This document shows, one piece after another, positions 56,875 through 64,000 of a DNA stretch of 64,000 nt. Below the pieces are notes generated by a model, which was not told the origin of the DNA, made no database searches, and saw only the letters and a list, made by a program, of their open reading frames with translations. Every line of letters begins with the position of its first letter. The first letter of the stretch is position 1. Location: assembly GCF_019740355.2 (NCBI RefSeq), contig NZ_CP091819.1:4278001-4342000 (forward strand), given 5' to 3'. The translations under genes and the position numbers were made by a program. The DNA is from Paracrocinitomix mangrovi. GTDB taxonomy: Bacteria; Bacteroidota; Bacteroidia; Flavobacteriales_D; Crocinitomicaceae.

Positions 56875-58899
56875 TTATTCTTCTATAGATTTTAACCTTT
56901 TCTGCAATACAAACATTTCATCTCTTAATCTTGCTGCTTCAATAAAGTCGAGTTCTTTTGCGGCAGCTTCCATGTCTTTTTGTGATTTTTTGATGGCTTT
57001 TTCCAATTGATCCTTACTCATGTATTCAATCACCGGATCTGCCGCCATTTGCATTTCTGTTTCAGTTTCGTAAATGGCTGTTACATTATCACCATCTGCC
57101 ACTTTTGTTTGCTTAAGGATGCTCTCTCTACTTTTCTTAATTTGTTGTGGTGTGATGTTATGATCTTTATTGTATTCCTCTTGAATCGTTCTTCTTCTGT
57201 TGGTCTCGTCAATGGTTTTACGCATTGAGTCTGTTATCTTGTCTGCGTACATGATCACTCGCCCGTTAACATTTCTTGCGGCTCTACCTACGGTTTGAAC
57301 CAGGGCTCTTTCAGATCTTAAGAATCCTTCCTTATCTGCATCAATAATAGCTACTAAAGAAACTTCAGGTAAATCCAATCCCTCTCGCAATAAGTTAACA
57401 CCAATCAAAACATCAAATTCTCCCAAGCGCAATTGACGCAATATTTCCACTCTTTCCAGGGTATCAACATCCGAATGGATATACCTACAAGGAATAGACA
57501 TTTTGTCAAGATATTTTTGAAGTTCTTCGGCCATTCTCTTTGTCAGAGTAGTCACCAATACACGCTCATCCTTTTCTTTTCGAATGTGTATTTCTTCAAT
57601 TAGATCATCAATTTGATTTTTACTTGGGCGTATTTCTATAATTGGATCTAACAAACCTGTTGGACGAATAATTTGTTCAACGTAAATACCTTCAGATTTT
57701 TCCAATTCATAATCAGCCGGAGTTGCTGAAACGTAGAGCGTTTGACCTGTAACTGATTCAAATTCTTCAAATTTCAGTGGTCTGTTGTCCATGGCAGCAG
57801 GCAATCTAAATCCAAACTCTACAAGATTTTGTTTTCTAGATCTATCTCCTCCATACATGGCCCTAATTTGTGGAATCGTTACGTGACTTTCATCTATCAT
57901 CAAAACAAAGTCATCAGGAAAATAATCTATTAAACAGAAAGGTCTTGATCCTGGAGGCCTTCCGTCAAAATATCTTGAATAGTTCTCAATACCTGAGCAA
58001 TAACCCAGTTCACGAATCATTTCTAAGTCGTAATTAACACGATCCTCAATTCTCTTAGCTTCCAAAACTTTTCCTTCTCCCCTTAAAAATTCAAGGTGCT
58101 TACCAAGATCCAGTTCAATTTCTCCAATGGCAGAATTTATGGTTGATTGACTGGTAACAAAAATGTTTGCAGGGAAAATATTGATTTCTGTAAAGTCTTC
58201 TATTTTACTGTTGTTAATAGGGTCAAAAGTGTAGATTTCTTCAATTTCATCACCCCAAAATATGATACGCAATGCATAGTCAACATAAGCCAAAAATACA
58301 TCTATGGTGTCTCCTTTAACCCTAAAATTTCCTCGTTCAGGTGCTGTATCATTCCTTGAATATAGATTCTCTACAAGTTTCAGTAAAAACTTGTTTCTGG
58401 AAACGTTCATTCCCTTGGTAACATGGATAATAGACTCCTCAAATTCCTTGGGATTTCCGATACCATAAATACATGAAACTGAAGCTACAATTAACACATC
58501 TCTTCTTCCTGAAAGTAGGGCAGAGGTGGCTGAAAGGCGCAACTTCTCAATTTCATCATTGATAGACATGTCCTTTTCAATGAAAGTATCTGTTACAGGC
58601 AAATATGCCTCTGGTTGATAGTAGTCATAATACGAAACAAAGTATTCTACAGCATTATCAGGAAAAAACTGTTTAAACTCACCATATAGCTGTGCGGCTA
58701 ATGTTTTGTTGTGAGATAAAACAAGTGTAGGGCGATTCAGTTTTTCCACCACATTAGCCATGGTGAATGTTTTTCCACTTCCCGTTACTCCTAAAAGTGT
58801 TTGAAATTGCTCGCCATTTTCAAATCCCTGAACAATTTGCTCAATTGCCTGAGGTTGATCTCCTGTTGGTTTATAATCTGCTTGTATTTTAAAGTCCAT
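56875..58899 (-). CDS. uvrB: excinuclease ABC subunit B
   Basis: 674 residues. Nucleotide excision repair helicase-like subunit that verifies damage. Walker A GVTGSGKTFT (about 40-49), DEAD-like box MIDESHVT, the beta-hairpin region YYDYYQPEAYLP, motif VI QTVGRAARN, and a UvrB/UvrC interaction motif at the C-terminus (AAKELDFIEAARLRDEM). Start at 58899 (DFKIQADYKPTGDQPQAI follows, as usual for the family). Overlaps ispH by 11 bases. Confidence 0.97.
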   Translation of the reverse strand: MDFKIQADYKPTGDQPQAIEQIVQGFENGEQFQTLLGVTGSGKTFTMANVVEKLNRPTLVLSHNKTLAAQLYGEFKQFFPDNAVEYFVSYYDYYQPEAYLPVTDTFIEKDMSINDEIEKLRLSATSALLSGRRDVLIVASVSCIYGIGNPKEFEESIIHVTKGMNVSRNKFLLKLVENLYSRNDTAPERGNFRVKGDTIDVFLAYVDYALRIIFWGDEIEEIYTFDPINNSKIEDFTEINIFPANIFVTSQSTINSAIGEIELDLGKHLEFLRGEGKVLEAKRIEDRVNYDLEMIRELGYCSGIENYSRYFDGRPPGSRPFCLIDYFPDDFVLMIDESHVTIPQIRAMYGGDRSRKQNLVEFGFRLPAAMDNRPLKFEEFESVTGQTLYVSATPADYELEKSEGIYVEQIIRPTGLLDPIIEIRPSKNQIDDLIEEIHIRKEKDERVLVTTLTKRMAEELQKYLDKMSIPCRYIHSDVDTLERVEILRQLRLGEFDVLIGVNLLREGLDLPEVSLVAIIDADKEGFLRSERALVQTVGRAARNVNGRVIMYADKITDSMRKTIDETNRRRTIQEEYNKDHNITPQQIKKSRESILKQTKVADGDNVTAIYETETEMQMAADPVIEYMSKDQLEKAIKKSQKDMEAAAKELDFIEAARLRDEMFVLQKRLKSIEE

Positions 58900-60124
58900 T
58901 GTATTTTGCTGCTACTTTGTTAACTGCACTGTCTAACAGTTGGTTTTGTTTTTTAAATAATAGTATTTTTTGAATCAATTCTTCCACCAGAACATCAGGA
59001 CATGAAGCACCTGTAGTTATTCCAATTCTAATGTTTTTCTTGCCCAAATCAATTGAATCAACTACCTCTTTAGACGTTTCTATATTAAAATGCTTTATTT
59101 CCTTTTCGTTTAATAGTTTGTCAGCATCTTCAATGAAATAAGTAGGACAAAAATTATTCAAAATTTTAACCAGTTTAGTTGTGTTTGAGCTGTTGTATCC
59201 ACCAATTACAAAAGCTATATCTGGTTTAGTTTGAGCCATAGTTATTGTTGCAGATTGATTTTCATTGGTTGCATAACAAAGAGTATCTCTAGTGCTTCCA
59301 AAGTGCTTATCTACTTGTTCTACTCCATATTTCATCACCATTTCCTCCCTTAGGTAGTCTGAAATTTGCTGAGTTTCTTCTGCAAGCATGGTAGTTTGGT
59401 TCACAACGGCAATTTTTTGAAGATCTTTGGTATAATTAAATCCGGCTGATTTAATAGGCTTAACTTTTACTTCAAATTCTTCTTTTTGAATTTCTTGCTT
59501 AATCAAAAGTCCTAGCAACTTAGCCTCCTCCAGATTATATATAATCATTGCTGGTCCATATCTTTCTATCCTTTTAAAGGTAGCTCTAGTTTCCTCATGA
59601 GTTGGTTTACCGTGAACGATAATGGTATATCCGTCTTTTGCTAATTTTTCACCTTTGTTCCATACTCTTTCAACAAAAGGACAAGTTGTGTCATATTCTT
59701 CTATTTGAATTCCCTTTTCATTCAGTTTTTGTTCCAATTCGGGAGTTGTACCAAAGGCGGGAATAATGACAATGTCCTCTTTTTTTAAATTATCAAAAGG
59801 TATTTTCACATTTCCGTAGGTGTCCATTATAAAACGCATTCCCTTTTTCTGTAAATCTGTATTTACATGCGGATTATGAATTATTTCGCTTAAGAGATAA
59901 ATGTCCTTTTCAGGATATTTTTTGAGTATTTGATATGCTTTTTCAACTGCATTTTGAACACCAAAACAAAATCCAAAATGCCTTGCTAATGCAATTTCAA
60001 CATTTTCAAATTCCAATATTGTAGGTACCAAGTCTTTCTTAAGCTTATCTGCTTCTTGACGGATATTCTTCAATTGAGAAATAAAACCTGATTGATATTG
60101 ATGTGGAATGTTGAATTGCTTCAT
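58889..60124 (-). CDS. ispH: 4-hydroxy-3-methylbut-2-enyl diphosphate reductase
   Basis: 411 residues from ATG 60124. Last enzyme of the MEP isoprenoid pathway, with a [4Fe-4S] cluster held by three Cys: HFGFCFGVQNA (first), the TCPFVERVW region (second) and GASCPDVLVEE (third). The conserved TGASCPD and SSNTTKLV segments are present. About 95 residues longer than E. coli IspH, with an N-terminal extension typical of Bacteroidota. An upstream in-frame start at 60163 lies before the promoter box and is unlikely. It shares its 3' end with uvrB by 11 bases. Confidence 0.93.
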   Translation of the reverse strand: MKQFNIPHQYQSGFISQLKNIRQEADKLKKDLVPTILEFENVEIALARHFGFCFGVQNAVEKAYQILKKYPEKDIYLLSEIIHNPHVNTDLQKKGMRFIMDTYGNVKIPFDNLKKEDIVIIPAFGTTPELEQKLNEKGIQIEEYDTTCPFVERVWNKGEKLAKDGYTIIVHGKPTHEETRATFKRIERYGPAMIIYNLEEAKLLGLLIKQEIQKEEFEVKVKPIKSAGFNYTKDLQKIAVVNQTTMLAEETQQISDYLREEMVMKYGVEQVDKHFGSTRDTLCYATNENQSATITMAQTKPDIAFVIGGYNSSNTTKLVKILNNFCPTYFIEDADKLLNEKEIKHFNIETSKEVVDSIDLGKKNIRIGITTGASCPDVLVEELIQKILLFKKQNQLLDSAVNKVAAKYNGL

Positions 60125-60129
60125 TACAT

Positions 60130-60137
60130 CAAAAATA
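60130..60137 (-). promoter_or_regulatory. -7 box directly before ispH
   Basis: TATTTTTG on the minus strand ends five bases upstream of the ATG at 60124, so the ispH-uvrB transcript should be leaderless or nearly so. TTG-type sequences are found at 13 and 23 bases, not at 19. Confidence 0.45.
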
Positions 60138-60236
60138 CGTCCTTCTGTGACAATATTTACCAAAAAATAAAAGAAGGCCCCATGAAAAACCTCCTTTTAC
60201 CTATTGAATTGAAACGTGAATTAAATTTTGTCTTTT

Positions 60237-60255
60237 CTGAAACACTTGGTTTCAG
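60237..60255. other. perfect 7-bp hairpin in the gap before ispH
   Basis: CTGAAAC (60237-60243) and GTTTCAG (60249-60255) around a five-base loop. No T-run follows on either strand, so it is not a standard terminator. It lies in the 234-base gap between ispH and the thioredoxin-like gene, which otherwise has only a weak TTAAGT/ACTTAA stem (60340-60357) and nothing coding. Confidence 0.4.
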
Positions 60256-60358
60256 GCATTACAAATAATATACAATCCAAAAATAAGGGCTAAGAAATGA
60301 GAAGAAAAGAGTATTAAAACGGAGAAAAACGACTTTTTATTAAGTATAAAAACTTAAC

Positions 60359-61054
60359 CTAAGGTTCAAGGCTCATAATATAGTCAAGGGCTGTGTAGTT
60401 CAATTCTCCCGACCAATGCTTCATGGTAGATTGGTCTTTATCAAGCAAAAATACTGAGGGCATGTCAATACCTGCAATTTCAATCATAAATCTCATATCC
60501 CCTAAGAGGTAGGAGTCAAAGTTTTCACCTCGGTTGTTTTTTAAAAAGTTCAAAACATCCTCTTTGGTGTCGATAAAAAAGGCATGAATTTCCATTTCCA
60601 TTCCTGCGGATTTGCAAATTCCAAGTTTAGCTGAAGTGTTCATGCAATGCCCACAGTTGGTGTCAAAAAATACTACCAAATGCCTGTGGTCTTTAGGGGT
60701 ATAATTTTCGCCGGAAGCTACACTAAGTGTATTAGCAGATTCCAATGTCATTTCATCACTGAAATCACCATAATCTGTGTTCCAAATTGGACTGATAAAA
60801 GAAATTCCAAATCCCGGTAACATTCCTATTAAAAACACCCAAATGAATTTGATTTTTCGGGTTTTTTCAAAAAATGAAAATGTAAGATTTAGGGCAATTA
60901 CGAAAAATACAATCACCAAAAATCTAAGGAAAAATGTAGTGAAAACCCATCCTGAGTTGAGGTTGATAATTGACCAGGTAATTAGCTTATAATAAAACAA
61001 CGGAATTGTAAAAGCTATACCTAAAAAAACAAGGATGGAAATTATTCGTGCCAT
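60359..61054 (-). CDS. membrane protein with thioredoxin-like domain
   Basis: 231 residues from ATG 61054 (the longer frame begins inside a terminator hairpin). Three N-terminal membrane segments (ISILVFLGIAFTIPLFYY; FLRFLVIVFFVIALNLTF; FIWVFLIGMLPGFGISF) and then a thioredoxin-fold domain with a CxxC site (VVFFDTNCGHCMNTSAKLG) and the cis-Pro region IDMPSVFLLDKD. The active site CGHC is that of protein disulphide isomerases. An extracytoplasmic thiol-disulphide exchange role is likely. Confidence 0.8.
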   Translation of the reverse strand: MARIISILVFLGIAFTIPLFYYKLITWSIINLNSGWVFTTFFLRFLVIVFFVIALNLTFSFFEKTRKIKFIWVFLIGMLPGFGISFISPIWNTDYGDFSDEMTLESANTLSVASGENYTPKDHRHLVVFFDTNCGHCMNTSAKLGICKSAGMEMEIHAFFIDTKEDVLNFLKNNRGENFDSYLLGDMRFMIEIAGIDMPSVFLLDKDQSTMKHWSGELNYTALDYIMSLEP

Positions 61055-61062
61055 GATTATAA

Positions 61063-61070
61063 CAAAGATA
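61063..61070 (-). promoter_or_regulatory. -7 box before the thioredoxin-like gene
   Basis: TATCTTTG on the minus strand ends eight bases before the ATG at 61054. The nearest TTTG (complement of 61094-61097) lies 23 bases upstream, inside the loop of the preceding terminator. Confidence 0.45.
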
Positions 61071-61079
61071 AAAATAGGC

Positions 61080-61104
61080 AAAAAAAAAGGGGGCAAATGC
61101 CCCC
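61080..61104 (-). terminator. terminator of the first lipoprotein gene
   Basis: GGGGGC (61089-61094) and GCCCCC (61099-61104) form a six-pair GC stem with a four-base loop; read on the minus strand it is followed by eight T. It lies 22 bases after the stop at 61127 and directly upstream of the next gene's promoter. Confidence 0.9.
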
Positions 61105-61126
61105 TGAATATTATATAATATTCTAA

Positions 61127-61552
61127 TTATTGCTTTTCAGCTTTAGTAGTAGTTACACCACCATTTGTGTCAGTTTGCTCGAATGTAGCGTTAGTTTTTG
61201 ACAACTCAACGATAGTCATTGAGAAAACATCTGAAGTATCATCAGCTTTTGACTCAAGAACTGTACCGTCTCCAGTAACTCTGAACAACATGTTTTCAGT
61301 GAATGAAGCACCACCCCAAGTTACAGTTTGGCTTCCAGTACACCACTCATCAGTTTTCAATTTACAAGAATTGAAAGTCATTGAGATCTCAGTACCACCA
61401 TCTAATAAGTTAGTAGTAGTTCCGCTAATTGCGTAAGTAGCTTCAGTAGCTTTCCAAGTACCGTCTAATTTTTTAACAGCAGCTTGATCTTTGTTACATG
61501 AAACCAAAGTTAAACCTGCGAAGGCAATTGCTACAAATAATAGCTTTTTCAT
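61127..61552 (-). CDS. lipocalin-like small lipoprotein, paralogue A
   Basis: 141 residues. Lipoprotein signal (LLFVAIAFAGLTLVSC, Cys19). Beta-strand-rich body with LDGTWKATEATYAISG at the start of the mature part, then MTFNSCKLKTDEWCTGSQTV, LFRVTGDGTVLESKADD and VELSKTNATFEQTD. The architecture resembles lipocalin-like Bacteroidota lipoproteins. It is the same length as the gene at 61709 and about half identical to it (both begin with the same CNKDQAAVKKLDG run), a recent tandem duplication. Ligand unknown. Confidence 0.82.
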   Translation of the reverse strand: MKKLLFVAIAFAGLTLVSCNKDQAAVKKLDGTWKATEATYAISGTTTNLLDGGTEISMTFNSCKLKTDEWCTGSQTVTWGGASFTENMLFRVTGDGTVLESKADDTSDVFSMTIVELSKTNATFEQTDTNGGVTTTKAEKQ

Positions 61553-61658
61553 AATTCAAATTTTTAAGTTTACAAATTGCGACCCTAAATTAACTAATAT
61601 ATTGGAATAACAAAGGATAATTGGCAATAAGTTTATAAGATTAGATTGTTAAAAGAAA

Positions 61659-61688
61659 AAGCCGTTAATGAATGAACATCAACGGCTT
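61659..61688 (-). terminator. terminator of the second lipoprotein gene
   Basis: AAGCCGTTGATG and CATTAACGGCTT (complement of 61659-61688) form a 12-pair stem with one G-U pair, followed by a T-rich run (TTTCTTTT) on the minus strand. Confidence 0.85.
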
Positions 61689-61708
61689 ATAAAAAAAAAT
61701 AGTTTTTT

Positions 61709-62134
61709 TTATTTTTTCTCTAATTCTATATCTGTTGTAGAGTCACCATCTACTTGTTTAAGTACACAGTTTGATTTAGTTAATTCTATAATTTGTATTG
61801 AGCTTACGTCAGTAGAATCAGCATGTTCTTTTGTTTCTAATGTTGTACCATCTCCAGTTACTCTGAAAACGTAATTTTCTGTATCAGTATCTCCTAAAAA
61901 ATTAAGAGTTGCCGAACCTGTACACCACTCATCATTTTTTAATTTACAACTGTTGAATGTCCATTCAGCGCTTCCACCTGCACCAATAATGTCAATTGTG
62001 AAACCTCCGCCTGAAGCAACCATTTTTGTTGCATTCCAACTACCGTCTAATTTTTTAACAGCAGCTTGATCTTTGTTACATGACACCAATGTTACTCCAA
62101 CAAATGCCAATGCAATTAAAGTTAATTTTCTCAT
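61709..62134 (-). CDS. lipocalin-like small lipoprotein, paralogue B
   Basis: 141 residues, lipoprotein signal (LTLIALAFVGVTLVSC). Shares CNKDQAAVKKLDGxW, FNSCKLKxDEWCTGS, FRVTGDGTxLE and ELxKxN with paralogue A, while the central loop (MVASGGGFTIDIIGAGGS) is unlike it. All four Cys of the mature parts are shared. Has its own terminator, so the two copies are separate transcripts. Confidence 0.82.
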   Translation of the reverse strand: MRKLTLIALAFVGVTLVSCNKDQAAVKKLDGSWNATKMVASGGGFTIDIIGAGGSAEWTFNSCKLKNDEWCTGSATLNFLGDTDTENYVFRVTGDGTTLETKEHADSTDVSSIQIIELTKSNCVLKQVDGDSTTDIELEKK

Positions 62135-62158
62135 TATTTATAAGTTTTAATTCGGCGG

Positions 62159-62166
62159 CAAAACTA
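62159..62166 (-). promoter_or_regulatory. -7 box before paralogue B lipoprotein gene
   Basis: TAGTTTTG on the minus strand, 24 bases before the ATG at 62134; no clear -33. Confidence 0.4.
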
Positions 62167-62211
62167 AGTAAAAAGTTTTTAATTAACTTGAGTTTAAAAG
62201 CTTAAAATAAG

Positions 62212-63384
62212 TTAAAGTAAAATCTGCGCCAGTAGCGTTTGGATACCTGTTTGCATAGCAGTTTCATCAATGTCAAACTTGGCATTATGCACCGGATGAA
62301 TAATACCCTTAGATTCATTTCGAACACCAATTCGAATAAAAGTAGCTGGTATTTCCTGTGAAAAATAGGCGAAATCTTCTGCCGTAAGTCTCAAAGGAAG
62401 ATCAGTTACATTTTCTGACCCAAGTACTTCAGTCGCTTTTTGTCTGGCCTTTTTAGTTAACTCAGGATTGTTTTCCAAAAATGGATATCCTCTCCTAATT
62501 TCAACATCAACTTTGCCTCCCATGGCTTCAACCAACTGTATAGAATGATTTTTAATGAGCGTATGTGCCTTGTCCCTCCATGATTCATCCATGGTTCTAA
62601 AAGTTCCTTGCAAATCAACTTTATCAGGAATTACGTTTGTTGCCCCAAGACCTTCGATTCTTCCAAATGACAATACACATGGTATTTGAGGAGGGCAATT
62701 CCTGCTCACAATTTGCTGCAAAGAAGTTAAAAGATGTGCACTAATTAAAATAGGATCAATATTTTGATGTGGCATGGCTCCATGACCACCTTTCCCATGA
62801 ACAGTAATGTAAATTTCATCTGTGGACGCCATGTACATACCTTCTTTTAGTCCAATTTTACCGGCTTCTAGCTCAGGGAAAACATGTAGGGCGTAAATTT
62901 CATCTACTTTAGGGTTCTGCAAAACACCCTCTTTGATCATTAAACTAGCACCTCCAGGTAATTTTTCTTCTCCGGGTTGAAATATCAATTTAACTGAGCA
63001 ATGAAGCTTGTCTCTATTTTCTTGTAAAATTTTGGCTGTTCCCAACAATATTGCCGTGTGAACATCATGACCGCAGGCGTGCATAATTCCTTCATTGCAT
63101 GATTTATACGCAACATCATTTTCTTCTTTGATAGGTAAGGCATCTAAATCTGCTCGTAAGCCAATGCACTTATTAGAAGGGGACTCTGGTTTAATGAGTG
63201 CTACAATACCTGTTTCAACAATTCCACTTTTAAAATCAATACCCCAATCACTCAATTTTGAAGCAACAAACTTTGAGGTCTCATATTCATGAAACGACAA
63301 TTCAGGATGTTGATGAATATGCCTTCTGATGGCTATTACCTCATCAAGTATCTGTTTCGATTGTTGTTGAATGAGTTGTATCAT
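62212..63384 (-). CDS. M20-family amidohydrolase (IAA-amino-acid hydrolase / N-acyl amino acid type)
   Basis: 390 residues. M20D subfamily metallohydrolase: RRHIHQHPELSFHEYETSKF, GLRADLDALPI, HACGHDVHTAILLGTA (metal ligands), GEEKLPGGASLMIKEG, YALHVFPELEAGKIG, GKGGHGAMPHQNIDPI (dimerisation-domain His) and the C-terminal HNAKFDIDE. It removes acyl groups from N-acyl amino acids or amidated substrates; specificity open. Overlaps the TauE gene by 41 bases. Confidence 0.93.
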   Translation of the reverse strand: MIQLIQQQSKQILDEVIAIRRHIHQHPELSFHEYETSKFVASKLSDWGIDFKSGIVETGIVALIKPESPSNKCIGLRADLDALPIKEENDVAYKSCNEGIMHACGHDVHTAILLGTAKILQENRDKLHCSVKLIFQPGEEKLPGGASLMIKEGVLQNPKVDEIYALHVFPELEAGKIGLKEGMYMASTDEIYITVHGKGGHGAMPHQNIDPILISAHLLTSLQQIVSRNCPPQIPCVLSFGRIEGLGATNVIPDKVDLQGTFRTMDESWRDKAHTLIKNHSIQLVEAMGGKVDVEIRRGYPFLENNPELTKKARQKATEVLGSENVTDLPLRLTAEDFAYFSQEIPATFIRIGVRNESKGIIHPVHNAKFDIDETAMQTGIQTLLAQILL

Positions 63385-63775
63385 TTTTCTTTAATCCTCC
63401 TCCTTTATATCCAGAATATATCATTCGTACGGAAATGTACAGCATTAAGATACCAAATATCATTTTCACCAATGCAGGAGATAGTTTAAGCGATAGTTTA
63501 GATCCAAAGTATCCTCCTACAACAAATGTGACAGCAATGATGGCTCCAAATTTCCAATTCAATTCACCAGCTTTGGCGTAGTTCATTACAGCCAAAATCC
63601 CAATAGGAGGAAGCATGAGTAATAGTGAAGTTCCTTGCGCCTCATGTTGAGACATCCCCATAATATAAATCAAGGCCGGTACAATAATAACACCACCACC
63701 AATACCAACAAATCCACTCATGGCGCCTGCCACAAGTCCAATAAAAGAAAGCATTAAAATGGTTTGTAATGTCAT
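63344..63775 (-). CDS. half-size TauE/SafE family permease
   Basis: 143 residues with four membrane segments (FIGLVAGAMSGFVGIGGGVIIV, TSLLLMLPPIGILAVMNY, AIIAVTFVVGGYFG, MIFGILMLYISVRMIY) and a GGG motif in the first loop of the TauE/SafE fold. Full-length members have two such halves; the short form is frequent in this phylum and would work as a dimer. Proposed export of sulfite or other organosulfur anions. It overlaps the hydrolase gene downstream by 41 bases and the barrel gene by three bases (ATGA overlap at 63772-63775). Confidence 0.85.
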   Translation of the reverse strand: MTLQTILMLSFIGLVAGAMSGFVGIGGGVIIVPALIYIMGMSQHEAQGTSLLLMLPPIGILAVMNYAKAGELNWKFGAIIAVTFVVGGYFGSKLSLKLSPALVKMIFGILMLYISVRMIYSGYKGGGLKKNDTTHSTTIETDT

Positions 63776-64000
63776 ATGTCTTTAGTTAACGACAAATATG
63801 GTAAAGGTTTTTGGATTTCAAAATCTTCAACACCCCAAGCCAGATCAAACCTTATAAAGTATCCCCAGATTTTTGTTCTGGCGCCAAACCCAAATCCACC
63901 AATGATAGGTTCTCTTAAATTCTCTACGTTGATCGTAACCGGTTTGTCTACAATTACCTGAGTATTAAAGTAGTTTTCAGGACTAAAAGGGTGAGGACCG
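63772..64000 (-). CDS. outer-membrane beta-barrel protein, C-terminal end (cut by window edge)
   Basis: A 75-residue reading frame on the minus strand enters from the window end and stops at TGA 63772-63774. It ends with alternating beta-strands: VIVDKPVTINVENLREPIIG, GFGFGARTKIWGYFIRFDLA and WGVEDFEIQKPLPYLSLTK. The pattern of a C-terminal barrel strand pair with WG-turns resembles Omp85/TolB-linked barrel proteins of Bacteroidota. The rest of the gene lies beyond the window, so no family can be named safely. Translationally coupled to the TauE gene by the overlapping ATGA. Confidence 0.6.
   Translation of the reverse strand, partial: GPHPFSPENYFNTQVIVDKPVTINVENLREPIIGGFGFGARTKIWGYFIRFDLAWGVEDFEIQKPLPYLSLTKDI

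Follow-up and report, generated by a model that had tools for sequence, protein, structure and literature searches.

The thioredoxin-like gene described here most likely has its own sigma-A promoter, nearly leaderless, in an ordinary overlap with the terminator of the small lipoprotein gene preceding it; readthrough of that terminator is the main rival. We regard it as probable that the two genes form two head-to-tail units, in which a strong terminator is followed by a promoter that needs no -33 element and would produce a leader of about 4 nt. The original prediction, which placed a -33 element in the loop of the terminator, was probably right that the promoter of the thioredoxin-like gene overlaps the preceding terminator, and this layout recurs in relatives, but its choice of the loop TTTG as the -33 element is not upheld. 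Because promoter and terminator probably overlap, termination, readthrough and initiation would use the same DNA.

Gene order and intergenic features

The window is a stretch of 64,000 nucleotides from a genome of 4.37 Mb in one contig. The features referred to below are listed in the direction of transcription, with promoter positions set by the rule for Flavobacterium psychrophilum, in which the box occupies -12 to -5 (PMC9723704; this and the other published work is cited from excerpts).

63384-62212, minus strand: M20 peptidase gene (list of open reading frames, Pfam)
62134-61709, minus strand: first lipocalin-like lipoprotein gene (list of open reading frames; label by eye)
61127..61552, minus strand: second lipocalin-like lipoprotein gene, the upstream neighbour, 141 aa (list of open reading frames)
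61088..61105, minus strand: putative intrinsic terminator hairpin AGGGGGC-ATTT-GCCCCCT, stem of 7 bp (6 GC), tetraloop ATTT, -14.1 kcal/mol
61094..61097, minus strand: TTTG chosen in the original prediction, predicted positions -39 to -36, judged incidental
61080..61087, minus strand: run of eight T (nine with the last stem base), predicted positions -29 to -22 (-30 to -22 with the stem base)
61063..61070, minus strand: TATCTTTG, a match to the Bacteroidota -7 box TAHHTTTG (consensus from excerpts of PMC6847099 and PMC9723704)
61058, minus strand: A, predicted transcription start from the box rule (excerpts of PMC9723704), leader 4 nt
60359..61054, minus strand: thioredoxin-like (thioredoxin-fold) gene, 231 aa, ATG at 61054-61052 (list of open reading frames)
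Next after the thioredoxin-like gene, minus strand: ispH/LytB (LytB by Pfam)
After ispH/LytB, minus strand: UvrB-like reading frame (label by eye)

The product of 61127..61552 has a signal peptide and the lipobox LVSCNKDQ, both recognized by eye, and no Pfam match; its residues 1-33 align with a PG1828-family lipoprotein at 26.4 bits, below the cut-off of 50. The name lipocalin-like is our own label for it, and the last reading frame of the row is presumably UvrB-like, as judged by eye. The two adjacent 141-aa lipoproteins (window 61127-62134) have SCNKDQAAVKKLDG in common, and each of the two genes is followed by a separate terminator-like hairpin (61105-61088 and 61688-61659).

The thioredoxin-like protein carries a CGHC motif, and its N-terminal half appears hydrophobic by eye, from which it is probably membrane-bound. 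It has no match in Pfam or NCBIfam; compared with the PDB, a profile built from nine homologs hit ResA-type thiol-disulfide oxidoreductases over its positions 120-228 with a best E of 7.9e-6. Among named loci, the neighbouring M20 peptidase is closest to that of a Crocinitomicaceae MAG (79% identity), with Crocinitomix algicola at 71%, so the window very probably comes from a member of the Crocinitomicaceae. Rfam gave no match at gathering scores in the entire window.

The predicted terminator

The hairpin begins 21 nt after the end of the lipoprotein stop codon (61127 to 61105), and the T-run follows it directly, with a G at 61079 immediately after the eighth T. A GC-rich hairpin with a T-run straight after it, just 3' of a gene, is the form of an intrinsic terminator. 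The fold of the 87-nt stretch has a z score of -2.71, and equal stability was reached in 3 of 200 shuffled sequences. Given the seven pairs, six of them GC, the T-run and the fold z score, it is plausible that the hairpin acts as a terminator. Terminator-like sites in 58000-64000 are not clearly more frequent than in shuffled sequence (five compared with 3.4, sd 1.7), and three of these five are variants of the 61105-61088 hairpin. The limits of the hairpin had been given as 61104-61089, one base short at either end of those found here. The transcript of the small lipoprotein gene would end at this hairpin and its T-run, down to 61080.

The -7 box

TATCTTTG starts 9 nt past the T-run, ends 8 nt before the ATG and agrees with the Bacteroidota sigma-A consensus TAHHTTTG. 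How such boxes are distributed in this genome was examined in a sample of 864 kb, consisting of the window and 40 spaced 20-kb stretches, in which 612 genes were called, giving 609 upstream regions; the gene caller was a simple dicodon method (78% coding) that places the start of the thioredoxin-like gene wrongly at 60823. Of the 256 words of the form TAnnNNNN, the one most in excess in the 40 nt before the 609 starts is TAnnTTTG, followed by TAnnTTTA. The counts of TAnnTTTG in successive 10-nt bins before the starts are 26, 29, 32 and 17, falling to 2-10 further upstream, and no peak of this kind is seen with five rearranged control words (0-13 per bin). The same ranking of TAnnTTTG and TAnnTTTA displays a class located 4-8 nt before the ATG. 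At a distance of exactly 4 nt from the ATG, the sample has eight cases of TAnnTTTA and six of TAnnTTTG, which would predict leaderless mRNAs.

The combination of a hairpin and a following box is also found elsewhere in the sample, where 3 of 9 other gene pairs with at most 60 nt between hairpin and ATG have a box (0.8 expected, P 0.03); the target is absent from these nine because its start is miscalled at 60823. In the whole genome, seven T followed within 2-20 nt by TAnnTTTG gave 48 raw matches, compared with 28 for the reversed pattern, but both counts are inflated by overlapping matches and were left out of the evidence. A sigma-70 style scan of 58000-64000 found 20 sites with 22.2 expected from shuffles, as expected for this phylum.

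We infer that the thioredoxin-like gene is transcribed from TATCTTTG, with a start near the A at 61058. The predicted 4-nt leader would be uncommon: excerpts of the published maps give 5.5% leaderless in F. psychrophilum (PMC9723704) and 3.7% leaders under 10 nt in Bacteroides thetaiotaomicron (PMC7366714). The hairpin and T-run span -47 to -22 of the predicted promoter, so that the terminator would lie within the region occupied by the promoter. It is our suggestion that the T-run, at -30 to -22 in the target, may act as the AT-rich DNA upstream of the box. In F. johnsoniae, AT-rich motifs at -18 and -28 are reported (excerpts of PMC6847099, restated in PMC7366714), with the -33 motif described as 'much less evident' than these. 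No clear AT-rich -18/-28 motif of this kind appears in the profile of 110 boxes from this genome.

The TTTG in the hairpin loop

The TTTG does stand at the tip of the hairpin, 23 nt (61093-61071) before TATCTTTG, and its letters, place and spacing are all as originally described. Only the three T are loop bases; the G already lies in the stem, where it starts the 3' arm and forms the closing pair with C. As a -33 element it is unsupported on three grounds: it is predicted to be off position, the genome has no such signal, and its letters are not kept in homologs. With the box at -12 to -5, position -33 falls on a C in the stem, and no TTTG is centred near it.

For the 110 TAnnTTTG boxes of the sample, neither TTG nor TTTG peaks at any of the spacings between 8 and 44 nt; TTTG occurs exactly 23 nt before the box in three of them, within the range of 0-3 seen at every spacing. 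Likewise, all spacer windows before 117 boxes are free of a TTG or TTTG excess, the numbers of boxes with TTG being 23 (10-16), 20 (17-23), 15 (24-30), 20 (31-37), 16 (38-44) and 23 (45-51). Among 55 gene-end hairpins of the sample, loop plus closing pair holds TTG in 12 and TTTG in 6, the target hairpin probably being one of these six, as the sample includes the window. Twelve homologous hairpins, the target included, contain TTTG once, in the target itself (G000), and TTG in two (G000, G002). The loop TTTG appears to be an incidental by-product of T-rich loops closed by a C-G pair. The -33 element is hardly defining for sigma-A promoters in this group, since the genome sample shows no signal and the motif is weak in F. 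johnsoniae. What signal is visible lies in the -7 box, here as in F. johnsoniae, and therefore a -33 box would not be needed.

Homologous loci

The thioredoxin-like gene was found in 23 of 240 genomes, in 26 rows of genes. Eighteen rows were used, 12 in which the gene lies behind a small lipoprotein gene (type B, including the target) and six in which it lies behind an M20 peptidase gene (type A). Eight were left out: three are cut by contig ends (G001, G091, G093:C82), three had a start that the script did not find (G174, G159, G154), and in two the neighbour was not recognized as lipoprotein or M20 by the text pattern (G066, G087). In G087 there are boxes upstream of the called start. The lipoprotein of G025 was missed by the same pattern, and this locus was assigned to type B separately.

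All 12 type B loci, the target and 11 others, have a hairpin with a T-rich tail between the two genes, with stems that differ in sequence, stabilities of -8.9 to -18.0 kcal/mol and distances to the ATG of 9-90 nt; in nine, the hairpin is followed by at least 8 T in a row. The hairpin finder used for these loci was loose, allowing one mismatch and reporting the best hairpin, and the P values below cover the box only; they also take the loci as independent, G095 and G090b being close kin. In 7 of the 12 (6 of 11 without the target), TAnnTTT[GA] stands between the hairpin and the ATG, whereas dinucleotide-shuffled copies of these stretches would give 1.4 (P 5e-5). TTTA was accepted beside TTTG for the 12 loci only after inspection; the choice is supported by the full ranking in the genome sample and by a partial count. 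TAnnTTTG alone is present in three of the loci (0.42 expected, P 0.005). Four loci have TAnnTTT[GA] 3-8 nt from the ATG (0.37 expected), and in G025, G002 and G140 the box lies exactly 4 nt before the ATG, with a predicted leader of 0. As the stems have different sequences, mere inheritance of the box along with the hairpin is unlikely.

An own promoter for the thioredoxin-like gene is not universal among type B homologs, five of which (G013a, G022, G095, G090b and G124) lack TAnnTTT[GA] downstream of the hairpin. In G022 (L099) a TAATTTTG box is located just before the hairpin, 37 nt upstream of the ATG used; a transcript from it would start with the hairpin, and a second in-frame ATG lies inside the hairpin. 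The six type A loci, whose gap to the M20 peptidase gene is -4 to 2 nt, have no box within 70 nt upstream; as these upstream stretches are coding DNA, they make a weak control. The position of the T-run varies among the seven box-bearing loci: it lies at -25 to -16 in G025, G002 and G089, and away from -18 to -28 in three, namely G010 and G003, where it is further up, and G140, in which the box begins within the T-rich tail.

Ten of the 12 type B loci have a short, cysteine-rich lipoprotein of a 'CKK' kind, and two (G000, G003) a lipocalin-like one. These very short lipoproteins (about 65-90 aa, with several cysteines, 'CKKDYTCEC...' and similar; L003, L005-L008, L103, L104, L106, L109 and L113), some of them in tandem copies, stand beside a CxxC thioredoxin-fold protein. 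That they are dedicated thiol partners of the thioredoxin-like protein is a guess. A single row of G090 (L104, L118) contains an M20 peptidase, a type A thioredoxin, a CKKD lipoprotein, a hairpin and a type B thioredoxin. We also considered that an M20-thioredoxin operon was split by an inserted lipoprotein gene and that the promoter was gained later; in its simple form, this scenario is not favoured. The six M20-linked and the 12 lipoprotein-linked genes separate across one branch of the tree (support 71/99), which recurs in 70% of 200 bootstrap trees, with only 2 of 15 inner branches well supported, and G090 and G013 hold both kinds of gene, so the two kinds look more like paralogs in different contexts.

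Alternative explanations

The two genes could instead form one operon with a partial terminator, in which the lipoprotein is made in excess, the thioredoxin-like gene is expressed by readthrough and the hairpin sets the ratio. We consider this possible, if clearly the less likely account. The order of lipoprotein, hairpin and thioredoxin-like gene is constant in all 12 type B homologs; the pair and its hairpin occur together in G013 without an M20 gene in the approximately 1.5 kb examined upstream; and the case is strongest for the five homologs without a box, where the 9-29 nt to the ATG leave scant space for a promoter. Against it stand the stability of the hairpins and the long T-runs after nine of them, and the boxes in 7 of the 12 loci exceed chance.

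Two other readings concern the letters themselves, and both are improbable. A working -33 element in the loop with a 23-nt spacer, as originally proposed, would have the published consensus on its side, since TTTG is the -33 motif in the excerpts of PMC6847099, and TTG is present at a spacing of 17-23 in three of the seven box-bearing homologs (23 in the target, 22 in G010, as TTTG, and 20 in G002). This share is greater than the 20 of 117 in the genome sample, but comprises seven cases only; the other four homologs have no TTG at that spacing, and the predicted position of -39 to -36 together with the lack of such a signal in the sample makes this reading very doubtful. Hardly more credible is that TATCTTTG arose by chance in T-rich DNA, with transcription of the gene coming from an unrecognized promoter elsewhere. 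Such a box does turn up in roughly 12% of shuffled T-rich stretches (1.4 of 12), but neither the excess of boxes in homologs nor the genome-wide peak near the ATG agrees with chance.

Relation to known systems

The locus is an ordinary example of the known terminator-promoter overlap. At tufB-secE in Salmonella, an inter-operon overlap of this type has been termed 'operon concatenation' (excerpts of PMC7055797); there the promoter of a unit overlaps the terminator of the codirectional unit before it, as would be the case here. The tufB-secE overlap was shown experimentally to matter for expression and fitness (same excerpts), whereas the present locus is known from sequence alone and has another promoter class and unrelated genes. 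Comparable wording on overlap was present only in PMC7055797 among the matches listed, most subscription journals lying outside the coverage, and no priority is claimed. The predicted promoter resembles the sigma-A (sigma-ABfr) promoters described in excerpts for F. johnsoniae (PMC6847099), F. psychrophilum (PMC9723704) and B. thetaiotaomicron (PMC7366714) in its TAHHTTTG box and a start predicted 4-5 nt downstream; it differs in having no visible -33 element and a very short predicted leader.

Excerpts of two further studies describe the recycling and reinitiation of RNA polymerase after termination, with single molecules in vitro (PMC6978380, PMC6978322), and RNA-seq evidence for antisense restarts in live cells (PMC6978322). 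The present locus shares with these systems, at the level of its geometry, a promoter right after a terminator, where a retained polymerase could reinitiate.

A hairpin sequence in duplex DNA is no obstacle to polymerase binding, and a polymerase paused at the T-run would cover the -7 box; therefore, transcription from upstream could occlude the second promoter or feed it by way of retained polymerase. It is a long shot that the lipoprotein-terminator-thioredoxin layout has been kept since released polymerase reinitiates on an adjoining leaderless promoter free of a -33 element, with the T-run serving both as terminator tail and as AT-rich element. If this were true, the thioredoxin-like gene would be coupled to the lipoprotein gene by polymerase recycling and not by readthrough.

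As a caution, promoter calling in this genome should not rely on a -33 element, while TAnnTTT[GA] near the ATG can serve for it. The hairpin-then-box layout with unrelated stems, present in 7 of the 12 homologs, offers a compact natural set for studying the effects of terminators and abutting promoters on one another in Bacteroidota.
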